A stretch of 64,000 nucleotides of DNA, from NCBI GenBank assembly GCA_002840095.1, contig PGZL01000010.1, positions 1-64,000 of the forward strand, read 5' to 3'. Position 1 is the stretch's first letter; every line of letters starts with the position of its first letter. The notes below the pieces were generated by a model. It had not been told where the DNA came from, searched no databases, and was given only the letters and a program-made list of their open reading frames with translations. Below, in pieces: positions 41,228 to 63,199 of the stretch. The DNA is from Gammaproteobacteria bacterium HGW-Gammaproteobacteria-1. GTDB taxonomy: Bacteria > Pseudomonadota > Gammaproteobacteria > Thiohalomonadales > Thiohalomonadaceae. The position numbers and the translations under genes were made by a program.

Positions 41228-41303
<76 letters not shown>

Positions 41304-44228: not shown

Positions 44229-44422
44229 GGGGTTGCTCCTGTTCTGGTTTTATCGAGATACCGCTGTAGCTGGTCTTCGCTGATGCGTAGCGGAGCGCGC
44301 GGACCTGTTCCCAGCTGGTGGGCCTCCAGCCGCCCGGCGCGGATTTCGCCGTAGAGGTGACCCCGGCTGATGCACAGCCGGGAGGCCACCTGAGCGATGG
44401 TGAGCAGCGGCTCGTCGCTCAT
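44039..44422 (-). CDS. Helix-turn-helix protein, probable excisionase
   Basis: A 127-residue protein. Residues 1-58 form a MerR/excisionase-type winged helix (LLTIAQVASRLCISRGHLYG, then EIRAGRLEAHQLG) that would bend DNA at attachment sites. The rest is basic and overlaps the integrase start by 190 bases in another frame, as a longer version of the xis-int overlaps of lambdoid phages. The ATG at 44422 shares a base with the ParB-like stop (TAATG). Confidence 0.75.
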   Translation of the reverse strand: MSDEPLLTIAQVASRLCISRGHLYGEIRAGRLEAHQLGTGPRAPLRISEDQLQRYLDKTRTGATPWQSENSKEAAGRPTLPTNGEVSRELNAHLTPRKRPRNGKQQSAPRPTIGCLGTEQDVYSGKH

Positions 44423-46215
44423 TACTGTGCTCCGGCTTCCTGGGAAGCGTTCCATGCGGCGCGCACGTAGGGGGGGCAGCCGACGGCCTCGGCGTGTTCG
44501 AGCAGCCATGCGCGCATGGCGTCGTCGTCGGCGCCTTCGTCGGACTTGGGTTTGCTCTTCTTCGGCGCCTTGGTTCCTTCGACCATATCGAGCAGTGCTT
44601 TCGTGTCGAGCATGTCGAGAAAGCGCGCGTCGACGCGGTAGCTATCGATAGAGATATCGAGCAGATGTGCCAGCAGAAGGACCTGATCATTATGCATGTG
44701 GCGCACAGCCAGCGCGGCGATTTCAGCGACATGGCCCAACGCACCGCCGCCTGTGAGGCATGCCTGCATGTCGGTCAGGCCCAGACGAAGTACGGTGGCG
44801 CTGTGCTCTTCGTCATCGTCGTAATAGGGCATCCCGAAGATGGCGCGCTTGTTTTCGTTGGGGTCTTCGCTGGCTTCGGCTTCGTCGTCATCCCATGATT
44901 CGATCCCGTCCGGGAAGCCGATGGCCATGTACGCCGCCAGGTTGAATTGCAGAGCAGTGTCGATGGCAACGTGTTCGGAGACGATGCGGTTACGCGCCCA
45001 GGGAGCAACGACATTACCCCTGATTTCATCGAGAAAGTCTTCACTCTCAACCGCCAAGGCCTCCTTCTCCCAGAAACAGGGCATGTTGAAGCAGGCCAAC
45101 TCGGTCATAGCGTCGTCGGCCGCGAGGAGCGCCTGTTTTTTGTGTTCGCAACCGGCGCAGCCGTCCGCATTGAAGCTAGCATCACCCAGGGAGGCGAAGT
45201 CTTGGCCATGCTTCAGGGTGCCATTCTGTTCCACGTCTTCAAGGTGGACGATGCCATCCTCGGCGACAATGACTGGCGTGGCATCCGTGCGGCGTTCGTG
45301 GGTAGATCCTTTAACGAAGGCTTTGGTGTGCTCCGATCTCTCCTGTTCATCCGCTGCTTTTTTGGCATCAAAACACTTGAGGTCTCCGCAGTAGATGGCC
45401 CCTTGCGTCCCCAGTTTGCGTGCCGCCTTGCACCCGTTGAAGCATTCGGCGGGATCGATATGGATAAATCCGAACTTCGGCGACCAGTAGGAAAACTTTC
45501 TATCTTGCGGTATGCACGGGAAGTCCTTGTTGTACAAACTAGCAATCTGATCTTGCAACTCCGGGGTCGTCGGGGCGCGTTTATGAACGACGCTGAAATC
45601 GGCGATCCAGTCGTCCACCTGACTTAGCAACTCGGGCAGGTCGTACACCTGGAGCAGGTATTTGCCGTGCGCCGGCGTCAGCTCGCCCTTGCGGATTGCA
45701 TCCTGCCCCCACTTGGGGAGCTTGAGCAGGCGGTGGATGTTGGTGAGCGCACCGCGCTGGAGCTTGATGCCTGCGGCGTTCAGGCGCTCTTCGGTTTCCT
45801 TGAGGGTCAGACCACCCTCGTTGCGCAGGCGGTCGATGACCTTGGCCAGCTCGATGGCGTTGAGGTCGGAGCGGTTGTAGTTCTCGCTGACCTGGTCGAT
45901 GAGGCGGTCGACAGGGCTTGCGTCCGGCGCTTCGTCGTCCAGCTCGGCGGCGATCACCTCTTCGCAGGCGAGCAGCGTTGCGCGGTATCTATTGGCGCCA
46001 TTCTTGATGATGTAACCGCCCAGGCCATCGCCCAGCACCTTGATGGGCTGGATCAGGCCGCGCAGTCCGCGGGCCCGGCGCTCCCTGATGCTTGCGGCGA
46101 TGCCTTCGATCTTCTCTTCGTTGAAGTCCTCGCGCGGCTGGGTGGGATCTTCCTGGAACATGCCGATGGGAAGCTCTTTCACTTCGCCCGGCTGTAATTG
46201 AATGTTATCGGTCAT
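44422..46215 (-). CDS. ParB/Spo0J-family protein with Cys-rich insert
   Basis: A 597-residue protein. Residues 15-95 form a ParB N-terminal domain (DPTQPREDFNEEKIEGIAAS, then GGYIIKNGANRYRATLLACE), followed by a helix-turn-helix region near 120-165. The middle has Cys groups (ECFNGCKAA...YCGDLKCF, DGCAGCEHK, CFNMPCF) likely to bind zinc. The C-terminus is acidic and low in similarity. Domain order resembles ParB-like proteins of prophages and integrative elements. It may regulate or partition DNA; no parA is next to it. Confidence 0.8.
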   Translation of the reverse strand: MTDNIQLQPGEVKELPIGMFQEDPTQPREDFNEEKIEGIAASIRERRARGLRGLIQPIKVLGDGLGGYIIKNGANRYRATLLACEEVIAAELDDEAPDASPVDRLIDQVSENYNRSDLNAIELAKVIDRLRNEGGLTLKETEERLNAAGIKLQRGALTNIHRLLKLPKWGQDAIRKGELTPAHGKYLLQVYDLPELLSQVDDWIADFSVVHKRAPTTPELQDQIASLYNKDFPCIPQDRKFSYWSPKFGFIHIDPAECFNGCKAARKLGTQGAIYCGDLKCFDAKKAADEQERSEHTKAFVKGSTHERRTDATPVIVAEDGIVHLEDVEQNGTLKHGQDFASLGDASFNADGCAGCEHKKQALLAADDAMTELACFNMPCFWEKEALAVESEDFLDEIRGNVVAPWARNRIVSEHVAIDTALQFNLAAYMAIGFPDGIESWDDDEAEASEDPNENKRAIFGMPYYDDDEEHSATVLRLGLTDMQACLTGGGALGHVAEIAALAVRHMHNDQVLLLAHLLDISIDSYRVDARFLDMLDTKALLDMVEGTKAPKKSKPKSDEGADDDAMRAWLLEHAEAVGCPPYVRAAWNASQEAGAQ

Positions 46216-47120: not shown

Positions 47121-47306
47121 TCAATCGGTTTTCCGGTAGGTGTTGAAAAATTCGCCGTGGTTCGTGATCACCATGTCCTCGACGCTATCAGGCTCTTTCA
47201 TGCCTGGGCGTTGAATGGTGGCGAGAGTTTTGTGCTCGGTGGTGGCACGCACCTCCACGCGGCCAGCGGGGCCTTGGTAGTGCGCACCGATGGCCGGGCG
47301 GTTCAT
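47121..47306 (-). CDS. Small hypothetical early protein
   Basis: A 61-residue protein (MNRPAIGAHYQGPAGRVEV) with no family I recognise. The ATG at 47306 overlaps the stop of the exonuclease-like gene (ATGA), which favours a real coupled gene. A GTG four codons upstream is less likely. It is followed by a 46-base gap before the repeat-containing gene. Confidence 0.55.
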   Translation of the reverse strand: MNRPAIGAHYQGPAGRVEVRATTEHKTLATIQRPGMKEPDSVEDMVITNHGEFFNTYRKTD

Positions 47307-47953
47307 CTGACGAACCACTGCCGCGGGTGAACCGGTTTGATCACCTGGCCCTGGCCGTTGATGACGTAGCCGTGCTCCTCGATAAAGCGGAGCACGCGGC
47401 GGGTCTGGTCGGTGTCGCCGAGGTTGTAGTTGATGAGGCGGCCATAGAGCCCCTGTTGATAGAGCAGCGGAGCTTCCGCGCCGCTTCCGTTCTTGCCGCC
47501 GATGCGGTCGCCGAGAGTGGCCCGGGCCACTGCGTCGAGGTTGTTGCCCTTGGCGTAGACGTTGCCTCCATTGCCGCCCCAGATCATTTGCAGGAGGTCG
47601 ATGTCGCGCTCGCCGGGGGCGGCGGACATGTCGGTGATCTCTTCCAGGGGCACGCCGGTACTGGCCGCCAGCAGGGGGTAGTCGAAGGCCCAGTGATTGA
47701 AGCCCGCGACCAGGGTTGCGCCAGAAAGAAGCTCGACCAGGCGCAAATGGTCATCGCGGCGGTCGCCGAAGATGTGGTAGCGGTCAGTCTCGACGTGGTA
47801 GGCCACCCCGCTGGAGATGCCGGCCTTGTGGCTGTTACCCCAGCCCTGCACGGCCTTGCCTGCGTCGAGCATGGCGCGATCAGCCTCGGTGCACTTGTCC
47901 GGGTTGGGAACGATGGCTTTCTGGATTTCGAGATCAAAGACGATGGTTTTCAC
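47303..47953 (-). CDS. RNase H-fold 3'-5' exonuclease-like protein (DEDDy type)
   Basis: A 216-residue protein with the exonuclease motifs in order: TIVFDLEI (residues 3-10, DxE), LVAGFNHWAFDYPLLAAS (near 80-98, Asp in FD) and YNLGDTDQT (near 175-183, the YxxxD motif III). This matches DnaQ-like DEDDy exonucleases of phages. It may act in recombination or DNA processing. The start is GTG 47953, placed 6 bases after an AGGAGG site. Confidence 0.72.
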   Translation of the reverse strand: MKTIVFDLEIQKAIVPNPDKCTEADRAMLDAGKAVQGWGNSHKAGISSGVAYHVETDRYHIFGDRRDDHLRLVELLSGATLVAGFNHWAFDYPLLAASTGVPLEEITDMSAAPGERDIDLLQMIWGGNGGNVYAKGNNLDAVARATLGDRIGGKNGSGAEAPLLYQQGLYGRLINYNLGDTDQTRRVLRFIEEHGYVINGQGQVIKPVHPRQWFVR

Positions 47954-47996
47954 GGCGTGCCTCCTGGGCGTTTTGCTGGTCGAGGTGGGCGGTGCG

Positions 47997-48086
47997 CTAG
48001 CGGTGGTAGCGAATCAGGCGCCCGACGTTGCGCAGGTGCTCCTGGGTGCGCCGTTCGGCGTCACTGCTCGGTTGGTAGCTCTTCAT
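47997..48086 (-). CDS. 29-residue ORF, first in the leftward early operon
   Basis: MKSYQPSSDAERRTQEHLR-NVGRLIRYHR begins at ATG 48086 with a GGGGAG site 5 bases upstream. It lies about 70 bases downstream of the leftward promoter and is followed by the exonuclease gene. The strong ribosome site supports translation. It is basic and could be a small regulator. Confidence 0.5.
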   Translation of the reverse strand: MKSYQPSSDAERRTQEHLRNVGRLIRYHR

Positions 48087-48099
48087 TGCACTCCCCTTT

Positions 48100-48194
48100 G
48101 TGTTGCTGTCATAGTTCCAGTGTCGGCGCTTGTGTTTCGTTGAGCGCAACACTGTTGACGTGTTTATATCGCTGTGTTCCACTGAATGCAACAC
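48100..48194. promoter_or_regulatory. Early operator region: three 21-bp operator-like sites
   Basis: Sites at 48100-48120 (+), 48132-48152 (-) and 48174-48194 (-) share GTGTTGC-NN-TCA-NN-G with a conserved C at position 19. The last two are near-palindromic, ending in AACAC, and their centres are 42 bases apart (four helical turns). They surround the leftward promoter, so they are probably bound by the XRE repressor encoded next to them. A fourth copy lies at 53395-53415. Confidence 0.65.
48163..48191 (-). promoter_or_regulatory. Leftward early promoter (PL-like)
   Basis: On the - strand TTGCAT (48191-48186), a 17-base spacer and TATAAA (48168-48163). The -35 lies inside the operator-like site at 48174-48194, and a second site begins just downstream of the -10, so a bound repressor would block it. 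It would transcribe all genes down to 41340. Confidence 0.7.
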
Positions 48195-48201
48195 CGGGGC
48201 G

Positions 48202-48227
48202 AAAAAAAACCGGCCTCAGGGGCCGGT
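48202..48227 (-). terminator. Terminator of the repressor gene
   Basis: On the - strand ACCGGCC, a 5-base loop and GGCCGGT are followed by eight T residues. It ends the repressor transcript about 22 bases after its stop and just before the early promoter. Confidence 0.88.
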
Positions 48228-48249
48228 CAGAAGAAGAGCGGGAATGGAA

Positions 48250-48621
48250 TTATCCGGCGGTTCTCTTGCGGTAGATGTAGGCGGCGTGGGTGTCATGCAC
48301 CATCTCGTCGATCCTGGCGCGCGCCTCCGGCGTTAGGGCTTTGTACTCGTTCAGCCAGCCGGCCACTTCGGGCGGGTAGAACAGGTCGGCTACCGTGATT
48401 TTTCTATGCAGGAGCTTGCCGAGCGCTACGGCCAGGCGCTCCAGGGTGTCCTGGGTGTAGCCCTGATTGTGTTCGATGCGCTTGATGGCGGTATGCGACA
48501 GGGGAGGGACGCAGCGATCGGCCAGTTCACGCAGGGAGAGATCGGCTTCCTCTCGCAGGGCGTGCACGTTGACGCCGGGCGGCTCGGTGATGGTGTACGG
48601 GTAGACGCTTTGCCGTTTCAT
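48250..48621 (-). CDS. XRE-family repressor (CI-like)
   Basis: A 123-residue protein with a helix-turn-helix near residues 22-62 (LREEADLSLRELADRCVPPL, then SHTAIKRIEHNQGYTQDTLE) and an extra helical C-terminus. It has no peptidase domain, so induction is not by LexA-type self-cleavage. ATG 48621 is used, but the frame is open up to 48804 and a longer form is possible; the ribosome site is weak, which may mean leaderless or regulated translation. It is divergent from the Cro-like gene. Confidence 0.75.
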   Translation of the reverse strand: MKRQSVYPYTITEPPGVNVHALREEADLSLRELADRCVPPLSHTAIKRIEHNQGYTQDTLERLAVALGKLLHRKITVADLFYPPEVAGWLNEYKALTPEARARIDEMVHDTHAAYIYRKRTAG

Positions 48622-48686
48622 GCGCTTAGGGTCGCAGACCATGGGCGCGGCAGGCAGACCATTTTTAGTGCCATTTTTTGGCCACT

Positions 48687-48746
48687 CTGGAACTATGAGG
48701 TTTCCCATTCGGCGACAGGGGGGCGTCTCCCTACTGTTCCGAGACG
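48687..48746. promoter_or_regulatory. Immunity-region repeats between repressor and Cro-like genes
   Basis: CTGGAACTATGAG at 48687-48699 is the inverted copy of the right half of the operator-like sites at 48100 and 53395. At 48724-48746 the palindrome CGTCTC-N11-GAGACG gives a further candidate operator. No strong promoter hexamers could be fixed here. Confidence 0.45.
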
Positions 48747-48793
48747 GGGCGTTCATGGTTCCAATGCGGGCGTAATTCAGGGGATTTAGGTTC

Positions 48794-49024
48794 ATGTTGA
48801 TCACTCCGTTTCAGTTGATGCTCCGACAGAAGGTAGTCCCTCCTGCCCAGATCAGGCAAGCGACCTCGTGCAGCAGGAGCACCCTGTGGCGTTGGCAGAA
48901 GGGGGCGAGTTTTCCCGAGAAGCCGCAGGCAGAGGCGTTGATCGCGCTGTTCTCCGAGGCGGGGCAGGAGTTGGATTTCAACGGGATTTATCAGGCGTCG
49001 GTCGATGTGGGGGATGAAAAGTAA
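48794..49024 (+). CDS. Cro-like regulator
   Basis: A 76-residue protein with a helix-turn-helix (VPPAQIRQATSCSRSTLWRW, then QKGASFPEKPQAEALIALF). It is the first gene of the rightward transcript, divergent from the repressor, which is the place of cro. It ends one base before the next ATG, so the two are coupled. Its operator is not proven. Confidence 0.75.
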   Translation: MLITPFQLMLRQKVVPPAQIRQATSCSRSTLWRWQKGASFPEKPQAEALIALFSEAGQELDFNGIYQASVDVGDEK

Positions 49025-49309
49025 ATGGATGATTTGACCCTCGTCGACACGCGGCCAGTCCGGCGCTTCGGTGCGCCGGCTGGAATTGGCGACTATGCCG
49101 CATGGCTGGAGCAGCGCTACCGGGAATGCCAGACGCTGGACAGCGGCAAGGTGATCTACTTCGGGGTGGCGCAGCACATCAACGCGATGATTCATGCCGC
49201 GCAGACGCGCGGCCAGCGCCTGGCGGCTTACGGCCCGTATGCCGGCGCCGCGGCCGCTGTCATCGAGAGATTGAGCGGCGGCACCGTCGACGTGGATGTG
49301 CTCGCATGA
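49025..49309 (+). CDS. Small hypothetical replication-region protein
   Basis: A 94-residue protein (MDDLTLVDTRPVRRFGAPA) with a helical middle (WLEQRYRECQTLDSGKVIY). I do not recognise the family. It starts directly after the Cro-like stop and overlaps the primase start by 4 bases (ATGA), so it belongs to the replication operon. Confidence 0.6.
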   Translation: MDDLTLVDTRPVRRFGAPAGIGDYAAWLEQRYRECQTLDSGKVIYFGVAQHINAMIHAAQTRGQRLAAYGPYAGAAAAVIERLSGGTVDVDVLA

Positions 49310-52300
49310 GCTGGCCCACGTCGACGGAGGATTACAAACGTCTGGCTGAGACCCTGCGCGAACTGGTCGGAGGCCGGCGCGACGTGGCGGCGCGCTACTT
49401 CGAGTTCATGGACGGCGAGCGCCTCGTGAAAGGCTGGCAGCCGTGGAAAGGGAAGAGGGTAGGGCGCGACTATCAGCCGGAGGCGGGGGAAACCGTCTGG
49501 GCCGGCAAGGATTACAAGACCGGTCATCTGGAGCGGCGCGTGCTGCGGCCGCTGTCGGTGGAAACCCTGATTACGCACCTCCGGGGCAAGGAGCGGCTGG
49601 GGGTGTACGTCCTGGACAAGGACAGCCGTTGTTCATTCCTCGCCGCCGACTTCGATGACCACGCAGGCCAGTTGGACCCCGACGCAATATGGGCGGAGGT
49701 CAAGCGGTTCTATGACGCCTGCGACGCCCACGACTGGAAGGCGCACATCGAGCGCAGCAAGTCGGGCAAGGGGTTCCACGTATGGCTGTTCTTCGATGCG
49801 CCCATCGAGGCGGCCAAGGCGCGCGCCATCGGGCGCTGGCTGTTCGAGGAGTCGCAGGCGATCCGCGAGGGTGAGGATTTTTCCACCTTCGACCGCTTTT
49901 TTCCCGCGCAATCCAAGTTGCCACCCGGCGCCAAAGGGTTCGGTAACCTGATCGGACTGCCGCTCTCCGGCTCAAAGGATTACGAGGTCGGCCGCTGCGC
50001 CTGGGTGCATCCCGAGAGCAGGAAACACATAGGCGATCCGCTGGCCTATACGCTGGCCATCCTGGAGCGGGGGCGTAATGCGGCGGGGCGGGTAGATGAG
50101 TTTATCGAGGAGTGGCAGCTCTCCATCGAGGAGCCTGGAGCCGCAGGCGGGGAATACACACCGCGAGATCCCGACAAGCCGCTGGGCGCCAAGGAAGAGT
50201 TTGAGGCCATGCTCTCCCGCTGCGCGTTCCTGCGCTGGGCGGCCGACCCTGCGCACCAGGCGCAGGTAAAGGAGCCGCTGTGGTATTCGATGGTCTCCAA
50301 TGCCTGCCGCTTCGAGGTGGACGACTGGATACACCAGGCCAGCAACCGCCATCCGGGCTATTCGTCCATCGAAACCGGCATGAAGATCGACCATGCCCGC
50401 GAAAGCAGCGGGCCGCACCGTTGCGCGAAGATTGCTGAGACGGGTTATACCGGTTGCCCGGACGGTGGCTGCAAGCTGCCCGACGGCAAGCCTGCTGCGG
50501 CGCCGGCCGGGCTCGCCGCCTGGGCGCACGCCGGCGACAAGGCGAAGCGGGGACGGGGGAACCGGACGGTTTCCGTCTCACCGGAGGAGGCCAGGCGCAG
50601 CGAGGGCGGGAACTACCCGGAGGAGCGAGAGGACTGGCCCGACGGCATCCCGCTGTACCCGGAGACGGGGCAGCCGTGGCCACAGGTCAGCCAGTCCTGG
50701 GAGATTACCAACGACGGCGTGATCCACCGAACCGAGCGGGGATCTGAGCTGATCGTCAGCAAGCCGCTATGGGTAGATGCGCTGACCCGCAACACCATCG
50801 GCACCTGGGGCGTGCGCCTACGCTTTTTCGATTTCGATTGGAAATACAAAACATGGGCTATCCCGCGCGACCGGCTGCACGAGCAGGGCGGCGCGCTGGC
50901 GCGCGAGTTGTCGGTGCTTGGCTTGCCGTTGATCCCCGGCAAGGAAAAATGGGTCTCCCGATTCATCGTGCTGCAGGAGGGCATGGTCGACAAGCGCATC
51001 CGTGCCGCAGGCCGTCTGGGCTGGTTCGACTCTGCCGAGCAGGCCCCGGTGTTTGTGATGCCCGAGCAGGTGATCGGGCAGTCGCGGGAGGAGATTGTCT
51101 ACCAGCCCGACGCTTACACGCCGGCGGCGGAGACGCTGCATTGGCAGGGCACCCTGGCCGAGTGGCAGCAGGGAGTGGCGGCGCAGTGCCGAGGTAATCC
51201 GGTGCTGATGTTCGGTGTGATGGTCGCGCTGGCGGGGCCGTTGCTGAAGCCATGCCAGGAACAGAGCGGCGGATTCCACCTCTACGGCACGACAACCGGC
51301 GGCAAAACCACTACCGCCCAGTGTGCGGCCTCCGTGTGGGGCTGCGGCGCCGATCCGCAGGAGGGCGCCGAGGTCACCAGCATCCGCAAGTGGTACTCCA
51401 CCGGCAACGCACTGGAGAGCGTTGCCGAGCTGCACAACGACACGCTGCTGCCCCTAGACGAGATCAGCGAGGTCGACCCTCAGGAGCTGGGGCGCATCAT
51501 CTACCAGCTGGCCGGCGGACTGGCCAAGGGCCGCTCCAATGCCTCGGGCGGACTGCGCGCGCAGAAAAGCTGGCGTCTGATGTTTCTCAGCACCGGCGAG
51601 AAGAGTGTGCGGCAGATGCTGGGGCAGGTGGGGCAGGAGGCCAAGGGCGGCCAGCGCGTGCGCATGCCCGATATCCCCGCAGACGACACCACCACCGGGC
51701 AGCGGTCCATCGTGGTGGACTCCCACGGGAAGGACGCCAAGGATTTTGTCCAGGAACTGAAGGCGGCGTGTTCGCGCTCCTACGGGCTCGCCGGCCCGAC
51801 GTTCACCGGCTACCTCATCGCCCAGGCAGTTGCGCGCGGCTGGTCTGTTTTCTCCGGCGAGCTGCGCGAGGAGTTGCGTCAGCTGGAAAAACAGCTGGCA
51901 ATGACAAACCCGCTCATCAACAAAGCCGACCCCACCAACAAACCAATCGAGATGGCGCCTGAGGAACGCCGCGTGTTGCGGCGGCTCTCGCTGGTGGCCT
52001 TGGCAGGGATGCATGCTCTACATGCCGGCATCGTGGATTGGTCGATCGGCGAGATTTTGCAGGCCGTGACCAACATCCGCGACCGCTGGCTGACGGAGCA
52101 GGGCGAGGAGAAGAGCGAGGCTGACCGCGGCCTGGCGCACCTGCGCGGTCAGCTGATTGCGCAGGCCGACCGCATCCGCCCCATCGACTCCAACAGCTCG
52201 GCCTATCGCAACATCGTTGGTTTCCGCTCGACCGAGTACTACATGCTCACCGAGCACGGACTGCGGGAGTTGTCCGGCGAGTTCGACGTGCGCAACATCC

Positions 52301-52539
52301 TCAACCACCTGAAGTCCGCCGGTCACCTGTGGCACGACAGCGGACGCCTGACGCGCAAGAGCCCCAAGATCGAGGGCTACGGCAACCACCGGCTGAACCT
52401 CTATTGGATCAGCCTGAACTTTATGGGCAAGGCGGATGTGTCAATGACGCAGGAGGATCAGGCGGTACGCAAGCCTGAGGCGGGGCCGCAGCCGCCGCAA
52501 GCACCGCTGCTGACTGACGAAGACTGGATTCCGTTTTAG
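49306..52539 (+). CDS. Primase-helicase: AEP primase domain plus DUF927 ATPase
   Basis: A 1077-residue replication protein. Residues about 90-250 form an archaeo-eukaryotic primase domain of the TOTE type: CSFLAADFDDHAGQ near 108-121 (catalytic hDhD), SGKGFHVWLFFDAP near 153-166 and GFGNLIGLPLSGSKDY near 207-222. A Cys/His stretch (HRCAKIAETGYTGCPDGGCK) follows near 370-390. The DUF927 ATPase has Walker A FHLYGTTTGGKTTTAQ near 657-672 and acidic LLPLDEISEVDP near 713-724. It probably initiates phage replication. The ATG at 49306 overlaps the upstream gene. Confidence 0.85.
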   Translation: MSWPTSTEDYKRLAETLRELVGGRRDVAARYFEFMDGERLVKGWQPWKGKRVGRDYQPEAGETVWAGKDYKTGHLERRVLRPLSVETLITHLRGKERLGVYVLDKDSRCSFLAADFDDHAGQLDPDAIWAEVKRFYDACDAHDWKAHIERSKSGKGFHVWLFFDAPIEAAKARAIGRWLFEESQAIREGEDFSTFDRFFPAQSKLPPGAKGFGNLIGLPLSGSKDYEVGRCAWVHPESRKHIGDPLAYTLAILERGRNAAGRVDEFIEEWQLSIEEPGAAGGEYTPRDPDKPLGAKEEFEAMLSRCAFLRWAADPAHQAQVKEPLWYSMVSNACRFEVDDWIHQASNRHPGYSSIETGMKIDHARESSGPHRCAKIAETGYTGCPDGGCKLPDGKPAAAPAGLAAWAHAGDKAKRGRGNRTVSVSPEEARRSEGGNYPEEREDWPDGIPLYPETGQPWPQVSQSWEITNDGVIHRTERGSELIVSKPLWVDALTRNTIGTWGVRLRFFDFDWKYKTWAIPRDRLHEQGGALARELSVLGLPLIPGKEKWVSRFIVLQEGMVDKRIRAAGRLGWFDSAEQAPVFVMPEQVIGQSREEIVYQPDAYTPAAETLHWQGTLAEWQQGVAAQCRGNPVLMFGVMVALAGPLLKPCQEQSGGFHLYGTTTGGKTTTAQCAASVWGCGADPQEGAEVTSIRKWYSTGNALESVAELHNDTLLPLDEISEVDPQELGRIIYQLAGGLAKGRSNASGGLRAQKSWRLMFLSTGEKSVRQMLGQVGQEAKGGQRVRMPDIPADDTTTGQRSIVVDSHGKDAKDFVQELKAACSRSYGLAGPTFTGYLIAQAVARGWSVFSGELREELRQLEKQLAMTNPLINKADPTNKPIEMAPEERRVLRRLSLVALAGMHALHAGIVDWSIGEILQAVTNIRDRWLTEQGEEKSEADRGLAHLRGQLIAQADRIRPIDSNSSAYRNIVGFRSTEYYMLTEHGLRELSGEFDVRNILNHLKSAGHLWHDSGRLTRKSPKIEGYGNHRLNLYWISLNFMGKADVSMTQEDQAVRKPEAGPQPPQAPLLTDEDWIPF

Positions 52540-52733
52540 AACCTACCCCAGCGGATCAGGCGGTAGGCGGCCAACAGCCGCAGGACTGACCTGGGGCAGC
52601 GGCTGCGCCCCTGGTTCCAGTTCTTGACGTTACCGTATGGCTCACGCAGCCACCGCGCCGCCGCGCCCAGATCAAGGCCGAGGCGGCGGCAGCGCCGCGC
52701 AAAGGGTGTGTTGTGGTGTCGGTTGCGTTTCAT
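52536..52733 (-). CDS. Small HTH-like protein, antisense to the primase end
   Basis: A 65-residue basic protein (MKRNRHHNTPFARRCRRLG) with LDLGAAARWLREPYGNVKNW near residues 20-39, then GRSRCPRSVLRLLAAYRL, which resembles small phage helix-turn-helix proteins. An ATG five codons upstream (52748) is possible. It converges on the primase gene and overlaps its last 4 bases. It lies downstream of a leftward promoter at 52963-52991. Confidence 0.6.
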   Translation of the reverse strand: MKRNRHHNTPFARRCRRLGLDLGAAARWLREPYGNVKNWNQGRSRCPRSVLRLLAAYRLIRWGRF

Positions 52734-52809
52734 GGTGGGCGCGATCATAGATCGCCCGGCTGCATTATGGTAATCACTGGCTCCCCGGCATCGCCGGGGC
52801 CTATCTGCA

Positions 52810-52866
52810 TCAGGAGCCCGACACGGCGCGGCTGGCGCCCTCTCCCTTAAAATCGGACTTGGCCAT
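52810..52866 (-). CDS. 18-residue leader-peptide-like ORF
   Basis: ATG 52866 with an AGGAG site 7 bases upstream opens an ORF reading MAKSDFKGEGASRAVSGS, ended by TGA. A GC-rich hairpin follows 11 bases after it, then the HTH gene at 52733. The layout resembles a leader peptide with attenuator, but no codon run points to a given amino acid. Confidence 0.35.
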   Translation of the reverse strand: MAKSDFKGEGASRAVSGS

Positions 52867-52962
52867 GATCTAGCTCCTATCTAGGTTTGGTCTGAGGCCT
52901 CACGGGTGGCTGCCTGTGGGGCCTCGCTTCTTGGGAAGCGCTGTTACGCTCACCGTTCCAAC

Positions 52963-52991
52963 AATCTAGGCGCAATATGCGCCTACGTCAA
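52963..52991 (-). promoter_or_regulatory. Leftward promoter with palindromic operator in its spacer
   Basis: On the - strand TTGACG (52991-52986), a 17-base spacer and TAGATT (52968-52963). The perfect palindrome TAGGCGCA-ATA-TGCGCCTA (52967-52985) fills the spacer and touches the -10, an ideal repressor site. It would drive the 18-codon ORF and the small HTH gene. Confidence 0.7.
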
Positions 52992-53010
52992 GCCCTCGCC
53001 CAGTATTTTT

Positions 53011-53339
53011 TGTCCCGCTGTCCCGCCGCCTCAAAATGCTGCGACAACGCGATAAGCTATTGATATTAAAGAGCACGTCCCGCTTGTCCCGCTGTCCCAC
53101 CGCAAAATGCACACACAGATAACCGCACTCCTTGACGTAAGCGGCCAGGGGTCCGGGGGAGCGAGGGGATAAAGATTACTCAAGGAGGGCGGGACAGCGG
53201 GACAAGCGGGACAGCCCGTTACCTGATAGCGGCAAAGGGATGAGGCGGCGCGGCGATAATAATTAGTTGTGACAGTCATTTAGACCACTCAATAACTAGG
53301 CCGCCAAGCCTCCCGGAAGCCCCTCAGGCGCTGTCCCGC
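53011..53339. repeat. TGTCCCGC iteron cluster (candidate replication origin)
   Basis: TGTCCCGC occurs in tandem at 53011-53026; a triplet with one-base variants spans 53076-53100; its inverted triplet (GCGGGACA, GCGGGACA, A, GCGGGACA) spans 53189-53213; another copy lies at 53332-53339. The two triplets are inverted copies matching at 23 of 25 bases, 88 bases apart. Position just after the primase gene favours an origin role. Confidence 0.7.
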
Positions 53340-53394
53340 CCCCTGGGAGCCTCGGTGAGACAGCCGGGACAACCCCGCGTCCTAGGCGTCCGCA

Positions 53395-53426
53395 GTGTTG
53401 CGCTCATAGTTCCGGCATGCTAAAAA
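53395..53426 (+). promoter_or_regulatory. Operator-like site overlapping a late-region promoter
   Basis: Bases 53395-53415 match the site at 48100-48120 at 18 of 21 positions and share the first 12 bases with the inverted site at 48132-48152. Within it TTGCGC (53398-53403) pairs with TAAAAA (53421-53426) over 17 bases, with a TG extension before the -10. It lies 90 bases upstream of the first late gene. Confidence 0.6.
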
Positions 53427-53511
53427 GACCCGCAATGAGGTTCAGGGGGACCGGTTCGCGGTCAATCAGCGGTTATCAGCCGGGCGAGCGCCCGGCCAGG
53501 AGGGCGGAGCG

Positions 53512-54174
53512 GTGGCAGGCGGCGGGCGCAGGGCTGGAGCAGGACGGCCGGAGGGTGGCATCAGCCAGGCCCGCCGCCTGCTGGTGGCCGCGCTAAATCG
53601 AGGCCTGGCCATTGCTGGACGCGAGAAGGGGCTAAAGGGCAGCGAGGAGGAGGTAGCTACCGAGTCCGCCGCCCAGATTGCCGCCGACATGATCCGGTCA
53701 GGCCGTGGCGATGAGGTGCTGAAGCTGTACGCCGTTGCGGCGCCGAAGGGCGACGAGGACGGCGGCCAGAAGGGCGGACGTTCCGCACTGCTGGACGCCC
53801 TAACGCGCCTGCCTGGCGCCATCGAGGCACCTCAGGCGTCCCGCATTCCCGACAACGACGAACAAACACCAACAAAATCAGAAGATTATGCTAGATGCTC
53901 TACTGATACCCAATCAGGCGTACACCTGCGCGACGCCCCCGAGCCACCCTTTGAGGGCATGTTCTTCCAGCCGCAACCGCTCCTGTTCGCGCCTTCGCTG
54001 TTGCCTGCTGCTGCTGGCCAGGGCGCGCACGATGGGCAGGGGAGCAGGGCGCCTGCCACCCCCCCCACCCCCCCCCACGCGGAGCCGTCCCCAGCTATAG
54101 GCCTGCGCGGCGAAAATTTTGAAAAAAACGAGTCAGCTCCCCTGGAGCAGGTTCACGCCGGAGGTTCCCGATGA
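53512..54174 (+). CDS. Putative terminase small subunit
   Basis: A 220-residue protein from GTG 53512 with an AGGAGGGCGGAG site upstream. The start (MAGGGRRAGAGRPEGGISQA) resembles the GRP-type N-termini of small terminases, and a helical domain follows to residue 110. The last 100 residues are Pro/Ala-rich and unstructured, and include a C8-A-C9 base tract (54059-54076). The assignment rests on the position before the large terminase. Its TGA is the only in-frame stop before the large subunit. Confidence 0.5.
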   Translation: MAGGGRRAGAGRPEGGISQARRLLVAALNRGLAIAGREKGLKGSEEEVATESAAQIAADMIRSGRGDEVLKLYAVAAPKGDEDGGQKGGRSALLDALTRLPGAIEAPQASRIPDNDEQTPTKSEDYARCSTDTQSGVHLRDAPEPPFEGMFFQPQPLLFAPSLLPAAAGQGAHDGQGSRAPATPPTPPHAEPSPAIGLRGENFEKNESAPLEQVHAGGSR

Positions 54175-54446
54175 GCCCCGCCCTACCAGCCTCCTTGCGA
54201 GTCGCGGGTGCGGGCGCGATCCCCTGCGCCGTTGTACGGGCGCTTCCGGCCTCCCGCCCCCTGGCTGACCAGGGGGGCTTGTGCGCGGCACGGCGCGCAG
54301 GCCTTCATGTCGCGGCGCCGGTGCGGGAACGGCGCCGCCTCGCCAGCGGCGCGCACCGCACCGCTGTTCGGGCCGCGTCGTGTACCCGCTCCGCGTTCGC
54401 GCCGACGGGAAGTAAGCAGCGGAGGGAGGCAAGCCATCGTGAATAA
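54171..54446 (+). CDS. Possible small gene between the terminase subunits
   Basis: ATG 54171 overlaps the previous stop (ATGA) and has a GGAGG site 6 bases upstream. The 91-codon frame ends overlapping the terminase GTG. These signals favour translation, but the protein (rich in Ala and Arg, no motif) looks like a chance GC-rich frame. It might serve only to couple translation into the large terminase. Confidence 0.3.
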   Translation: MSPALPASLRVAGAGAIPCAVVRALPASRPLADQGGLCAARRAGLHVAAPVRERRRLASGAHRTAVRAASCTRSAFAPTGSKQRREASHRE

Positions 54447-62023: not shown

Positions 62024-62065
62024 GAACTTGCATTTTTCATCCAATCGTGTAAAAGGAGTGGAACT

Positions 62066-63199
62066 ATGAGCGATACACTAAACAGCGCCGCCGTCACGGA
62101 TACCACCGCCACCGCCGCCGGAACCGCCGGCGTGGACGCGGGTGCGGCCCCGCCGACTGAGGGGCAGGGCGAGAAGGATATCGGCCGCGCCGCCGAGAAG
62201 GCCGTGCAGCGCGCCGAGGCGCGCGCCAGCAAGAAGAACACCGGCGACGCCGGGGAACAAGCCGCCGGGGGCGATAAGCCCACCGGTGCGAGCACTCCCG
62301 AAGTCGCCGCCCCCGAGGCCACCACGAAGGAAGGAGCGAAAAGCGCGGAGGAGGGCGATAAGCCCACTCTGGACAGCACCGCCGCCGCCCCCGAGAATTG
62401 GCCGAAAGACCGGCGCGAGGCCTACGCCGCGCTGCCGGACGACACTTCCCGCGCTCTGGTCATGGCCTTCTACAAGGACATACAGGCCGGGTTCACCAAG
62501 GCTACCCAGCAGGTGGCCGAGATCGTCAAGCAGAACGATGAGCTGTTCGGGGCGCTGAAGGAGCACGGCGCAGATGTTCCGCGGGTAAAGCAGTTGTTGA
62601 ACATCGGCAAGATGTTCGAGGCCGACCCGCGCAACGTCATCACCGAACTCGCAAAGGAGAAGGGTATCGAAGTGTTCTTCGAGCGTCCTCTCCCGGAAGG
62701 CGAGATGCCTGAGTTCAAGGACACGGCGGAAATGGCCGAGTGGATGCGCAATCAGGCGAAGAGCGAGGCCGAACGCACGCTCAAGGCCGCGAGTGACGCG
62801 GAGGAAAAGCGCCAGGCGGAGCGCGAGCAGGAAACTGCCCGCAATTCCGCCAAGGAGGCGCTCCAGAAGGAACTGGACGAAGCCGGCAAAGAACACGCCG
62901 ACTTCGGCGAGCACAAGGCCGCCGTGTTCGACACCCTGGCACGCGCGCCGGGGCTTTCAGTGAAGGAGGCCTACCACCTGGTCCGCCTGCCCGCCCTGCT
63001 CAAGCTGGCGGAGGAGGGGACCCAGGCCAAGGCAGAGCTGACCAAGCTGAAGGCCCAACAGGAGCGTGCCGCCAAGGACACCACCCGCCCGCCCAGCAGC
63101 CGCCGCGCCGAGCTGGCGCCGGAAGACAAGAACCTCTCTCCGGCGGAGCGTGCCCACAAGCGCGCCCAGGCCCGCATGGCACAGCAACAGAACGCTTGA
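62066..63199 (+). CDS. Probable scaffold protein
   Basis: A 377-residue acidic, Ala/Glu/Lys-rich protein. The first 110 residues are disordered. Then comes NWPKDRREAYAALPDDTSRA near 113-132, a helical middle, and a long coiled coil (SEAERTLKAASDAEEKRQAE). The tail is basic and ends QARMAQQQNA. Such proteins directly before the major capsid gene act as scaffolds in head assembly. ATG 62066 follows an AAGGAG site. Confidence 0.72.
   Translation: MSDTLNSAAVTDTTATAAGTAGVDAGAAPPTEGQGEKDIGRAAEKAVQRAEARASKKNTGDAGEQAAGGDKPTGASTPEVAAPEATTKEGAKSAEEGDKPTLDSTAAAPENWPKDRREAYAALPDDTSRALVMAFYKDIQAGFTKATQQVAEIVKQNDELFGALKEHGADVPRVKQLLNIGKMFEADPRNVITELAKEKGIEVFFERPLPEGEMPEFKDTAEMAEWMRNQAKSEAERTLKAASDAEEKRQAEREQETARNSAKEALQKELDEAGKEHADFGEHKAAVFDTLARAPGLSVKEAYHLVRLPALLKLAEEGTQAKAELTKLKAQQERAAKDTTRPPSSRRAELAPEDKNLSPAERAHKRAQARMAQQQNA

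Follow-up and report, generated by a model that had tools for sequence, protein, structure and literature searches.

In phage P1, C1 has 22 dispersed operators (PMC8546580), and the L5-type repressors of Cluster A mycobacteriophages have 20 to 30 sites, comprising both operators and stoperators (PMC6550527). The prophage described here resembles P1 in having a single, here putative, operator family over the phage genome, tied in P1 to early, replication and late-activating functions. It differs in that the P1 operators are 17 bp long and asymmetric, whereas those found here are 21-bp quasi-palindromes and fewer in number (ten). As in the L5-type systems, the sites are dispersed and some lie at or near gene boundaries in the late region. 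The L5 sites, however, are asymmetric and mostly oriented with transcription, while the present sites are dyads (58 of 100 half-site positions agree with their partner over the ten sites) of inconsistent orientation, most of them overlapping or adjoining predicted promoters.

With regard to lambda, the prophage shares a divergent arrangement of an XRE repressor and a Cro-like gene, and three operators grouped at the leftward promoter. In contrast to lambda, there is only one weak site at the switch, the repressor has no peptidase domain, and the sites extend beyond the early promoters to late genes and attR (53395, 62058, 70409, 80079 and 80132). The scheme is broader than that of lambda yet of a known kind, and would most likely operate like that of P1 C1 and partly like that of L5.

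The prophage and its features

The window, i.e. the whole stretch of DNA that was analysed, is 64,000 nucleotides long (positions 1-64000 of contig C29) and belongs to a genome of 4,232,253 bases. A 39-kb prophage (41259-80216) is delimited by a 47-bp direct repeat, whose copies at 41259 and 80170 are located within the 3' part of a tRNA-Thr gene. Its leftward genes include those for a D12-class methyltransferase, an integrase, an HTH_17 excisionase candidate, a ParB-like protein and the XRE regulator; reading rightward are the small Cro-like gene (48794) and the primase-helicase gene (49306-52539), then TerL, portal and more late genes. The ParB-like protein (44422-46215, minus strand) of this integrated prophage has ParB_N and HTH_ParB domains, and no ParA was found among the genes scanned. 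Past the window end, a lipoprotein-like gene, for which a separate promoter is predicted, adjoins attR (C29:79403-80068; L018:15403-16068) and is a candidate lysogenic-conversion gene.

The features of the window that bear on regulation are listed below, where L005 denotes a related contig and PL the predicted leftward promoter.

48100-48120: operator GTGTTGCTGTCATAGTTCCAG, in the PL leader; absent from L005
48132-48152: operator O2, GTGTTTCGTTGAGCGCAACAC, just past the predicted PL start; found by pattern and matrix, kept in L005
48163-48191, minus strand: predicted leftward promoter PL, TTGCAT-17-TATAAA
48174-48194: operator O1, GTGTTCCACTGAATGCAACAC, over the -35 of PL; found by pattern and matrix, kept in L005
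48208-48228, minus strand: intrinsic-terminator-like hairpin after the XRE gene and upstream of PL; sequence kept in L005
48250-48642, minus strand: XRE-family regulator, 130 aa; Pfam HTH_3, PHROG transcriptional repressor
48687-48707: operator CTGGAACTATGAGGTTTCCCA, the weakest of the family, in the intergenic switch that separates the XRE and Cro-like genes
48794-49024, plus strand: small HTH protein of 76 aa, Cro-like or excisionase-like; matches HTH, AlpA and excisionase profiles weakly
52941-52961: operator CTGTTACGCTCACCGTTCCAA, over a predicted leftward promoter start; found by the four-seed matrix
52963-52991, minus strand: predicted leftward promoter, TTGACG-17-TAGATT, rank 2 in the prophage
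53395-53415: operator GTGTTGCGCTCATAGTTCCGG, upstream of a putative small terminase gene and TerL; found by pattern and matrix
62058-62078: operator GTGGAACTATGAGCGATACAC, over the start codon (62066) of a putative scaffold gene; found by the four-seed matrix
Just upstream of the putative scaffold gene start: weak predicted promoter, TTGCAT-16-TAAAAG

Some further elements were seen beside these features. An inverted repeat, AGTGCCATTTTTTGGCCACT, abuts the 48687 operator as a separate element (48667-48686); it is single-copy in the window and almost unaltered in L005 (AGTGCCATTTTTCGGCCACA). The spacer of the promoter at 52991-52963 contains a near-perfect inverted repeat, TAGGCGCAATATGCGCCTA (52969-52987), and downstream of this promoter lies a small basic ORF of 70 aa (52536-52748, minus strand) that has no family match. 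Seven of the eight window copies of TGTCCCGC fall within 330 bp (53011-53339) in the stretch that separates the primase gene from the packaging genes, partly arranged as 25-nt inverted arms (53077-53101 and 53188-53212); this repeat region is possibly a replication origin.

Extent, symmetry and conservation of the site family

A sequence-only reading of the window had proposed that 21-bp sites at 48100, 48132, 48174 and 53395, sharing GTGTTGC-NN-TCA-NN-G (GTGTTGCNNTCANNGNNNC), form one operator family that joins the early leftward promoter, the region between the XRE and Cro-like genes and the beginning of the late genes, and that one repressor controls them all, a scheme wider than lambda's. 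Our analysis supports the linkage well; a single repressor behind it is probable. The pattern matched four times in the window, against 0.01 expected, and these same four sites are its sole matches in the genome. The 48100 and 53395 copies are, as had been reported, identical at 18 of 21 bases, while those at 48132 and 48174, which read GTGTTGC... on the minus strand, are inverted with respect to them, a point that had gone unmentioned. The half-site noted at 48687 is real but is better taken as a full, degenerate site, CTGGAACTATGAGGTTTCCCA. It has TCATAGTTCCAG in common with the 48100 copy, and TCATAGTTCCRG occurs at three places in the genome, namely 48109, 48687 (minus strand) and 53404.

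The matrix scan of the prophage that had been suggested as a check located five further sites. Seeded with the original four sites only, which makes it the less biased test of family extent, a symmetric matrix found 62058, 70409, 80079, 80132 and 52941 with scores of at least 16.5, whereas 465 kb of control chromosome gave one match at or above 16.5 and a next score of 13.6. A matrix built from the two asymmetric-looking copies also found more copies prophage-wide, and 65 kb of flanking chromosome yielded nothing comparable; the model of a purely asymmetric motif was abandoned when the dyad appeared.

At least ten sites are thus present in the prophage (48100, 48132, 48174, 48687, 52941, 53395, 62058, 70409, 80079 and 80132), those at 70409, 80079 and 80132 falling past the window end. 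They are 21-bp quasi-palindromes of the form nTGKWnCnnT-S-AnnGnWMCAn, with the half-site nTGKWnCnnT. G3 and T10 are invariant over the 20 halves, whereas T2 and C7 are each present in 18; position 4 is divided between ten T and ten G, and position 5 between ten T and ten A. The half TGGAACTAT is almost invariant in six sites. Many chromosomal matches of equal score would have spoken against the family, and this was not observed: the symmetric consensus TGKWNCNNTSANNGNWMCA, picked after the sites had been seen, has eight matches in the genome, seven of them in the prophage and one at C29:110902. The 48687 site is the weakest of the ten, with a leave-one-out score of 10.5. A half-site near 48753 (TCATGGTTCCAATG, kept in L005) fell under the symmetric-matrix cut-off and was not counted. 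As judged by the genome and control scans, one site family recurs across the phage genome and is rare elsewhere in the host. The family first noticed is real and its extent was underestimated: besides the three original regions it takes in the scaffold gene, a late gene of the tail region and the attR end.

The sole relative that we found, L005, came from genome contigs: it is a 3.9-kb contig binned, perhaps wrongly, with an Opitutaceae MAG, and it carries the same early region and only that. Identity is 85% for the XRE protein and 71% for the Cro-like protein. Three of the four homologous sites are kept (O1, O2 and 48687, the last scoring 18.3 in L005), the 48100 site being gone with a deletion of about 55-60 bp. 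The three shared sites carry 11 substitutions, only two of which fall at informative positions (p = 0.002). L005 also keeps the terminator after the XRE gene and the PL hexamers, its PL reading TTGCAT-17-TAAAAA. A blastn search of phages with 47300-54200 returned nothing, no close relative of the prophage was found among 50,697 phage records, searches of viral contigs with the XRE, Cro-like, primase and TerL proteins returned no relative, and searches of class and phylum genomes returned the own genome only. For TerL there were distant phage relatives only, below 30% identity among the best matches listed.

Placement of the sites relative to genes and promoters

The site centres are noncoding in eight of ten cases, compared to 10% of the prophage by our own ORF map (p = 3e-7, a value somewhat too small since the three PL sites are not independent). 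Four predicted promoters are overlapped by sites, i.e. PL and those at 52963, 70421 and 80124. The 80132 site lies over the -35 of a leftward predicted promoter (rank 3 in the prophage) and that at 70409 over a predicted -10; the latter (70409-70429) also spans the stop codon of a late gene of 73 aa, the next gene lying 40 bp further on. The sites at 80079 and 80132 form a pair within 90 bp of attR, and the two predicted leftward promoters near attR are antisense to the last gene, without a clear target. Promoter support is modest, as 11% of noncoding windows score as high. No strong promoter is predicted at 48687 or 53395; the TTGCGC-17-TAAAAA at 53395 was read by eye, prompted by the TAAAAA at the matching place in the L005 PL. 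Promoter starts are predicted near 48156 (minus), 52956 (minus), 53434 (plus), 62062 (plus), 70428 (plus) and 80117 (minus). The site centres are scattered from about -29 to +46 around the predicted promoter starts, and this varied position suits repression better than activation. Overall, the placement would agree with control of both early and late transcription units.

Candidate binding proteins and probable mode of control

The XRE protein (48250-48642) matches Pfam HTH_3 (E 2e-6) and a PHROG transcriptional repressor, and its gene is the only regulator gene with a significant repressor-type match; it is the likeliest ligand of the ten sites. Its start at 48642 was set by the substitution pattern relative to L005. 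A start at 48795, which would make 48687 XRE coding sequence, was rejected: substitutions over the codon positions are even there (13/12/9), as opposed to 11/9/38 in the gene body. The stretch 48643-48795, though open in the XRE frame, hence evolves unlike coding sequence, which places 48687 in the intergenic switch. Only HTH matches rose above noise in the Pfam search of the 130-aa protein, with no S24 peptidase domain, suggesting that induction proceeds without RecA-stimulated self-cleavage. AlphaFold models of both regulators, which had a mean pLDDT of about 45, were set aside, and searching solved structures by sequence yielded nothing useful.

We consider it probable, at roughly 0.7, that a single repressor uses the 21-mers as operators and so silences many parts of the prophage simultaneously, a dispersed-operator immunity system. 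In a lysogen, a dimer of the XRE-family protein would bind the quasi-palindromes. Three of these belong to PL, where one covers the -35, one follows closely on the predicted start and one is in the leader; a weak one falls in the XRE/Cro-like switch. Single sites occur at the promoter of the small ORF that reads leftward, where the packaging genes begin, at the scaffold start codon and before a late gene of the tail region, and a pair adjoins attR. Binding at promoters would block RNA polymerase, while at 62058 and 70409 the bound protein may form a roadblock inside the late transcript, instead of or besides a promoter block. Early, late and att-proximal transcription would in this way be silenced together.

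The family may be bound by the Cro-like or excisionase-like protein (48794-49024) rather than by the XRE protein; it would then repress during the lytic phase and perhaps act close to the attachment site in the manner of Apl. This we regard as unlikely. The protein has weak profile matches to the excisionase and AlpA families, two sites lie close to attR, and Apl of phage 186 is described as binding both att and early promoters (PMC7498355). However, the Apl-type sites in that description are direct repeats one helix turn apart, whereas the present sites are dyads, and three sites at PL together with dispersed late sites fit a lysogenic repressor better.

Less probable still is that two regulators share the family, with the half-site classes GTGTTnCnnT and nTGGAACTAT preferred by different proteins, which would distinguish TT/TT sites (PL), mixed sites (dispersed) and the GGA/GGA site (switch), or with a heterodimer on the mixed sites. 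The even splits at half-site positions 4 and 5 and the near-invariance of the TGGAACTAT half in six sites would agree with this, and a CI-MOR complex on a composite operator is described for TP901-1 (PMC7250872). Mixed pairing among the ten sites is, however, about what random pairing would give, and one degenerate motif accounts for the same half-site data. We give equally little weight to the idea that two regulators co-occupy the operators, in which case the mixed sites found across the early, late and attachment regions would bring lysogenic and lytic regulation together at each transcription unit and not at one central switch.

It is very improbable that the sites are some other dispersed prophage signal, serving a late activator, packaging, replication or attachment: 52941 and 53395 do flank the TGTCCCGC repeat region, sites do lie beside attR and some late sites lack strong promoters, but three copies at one early promoter and the varied promoter spacing are unlike a fixed-distance activator or packaging signal. 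Chance or coding similarity can be nearly dismissed, for although the exact 48100 21-mer recurs in eight IMG/VR contigs (L007, L008, L010 and L012-L016), there a coding coincidence that encodes GGVAVIVPA in one small conserved unrelated phage protein, it would leave the genome-wide confinement to the prophage, the dyad, the intergenic placement and the constrained L005 substitutions unexplained.

Dispersed-operator immunity is best documented in P1 and the mycobacteriophages, and the present, probable case concerns a tRNA-Thr-integrated prophage with dyad rather than asymmetric sites. If the single-repressor reading is true, loss of one small protein would derepress the late head and tail-region transcripts directly, beyond the early cascade, and the ten mapped sites would offer a compact set on which to test how one repressor ranks its operators.
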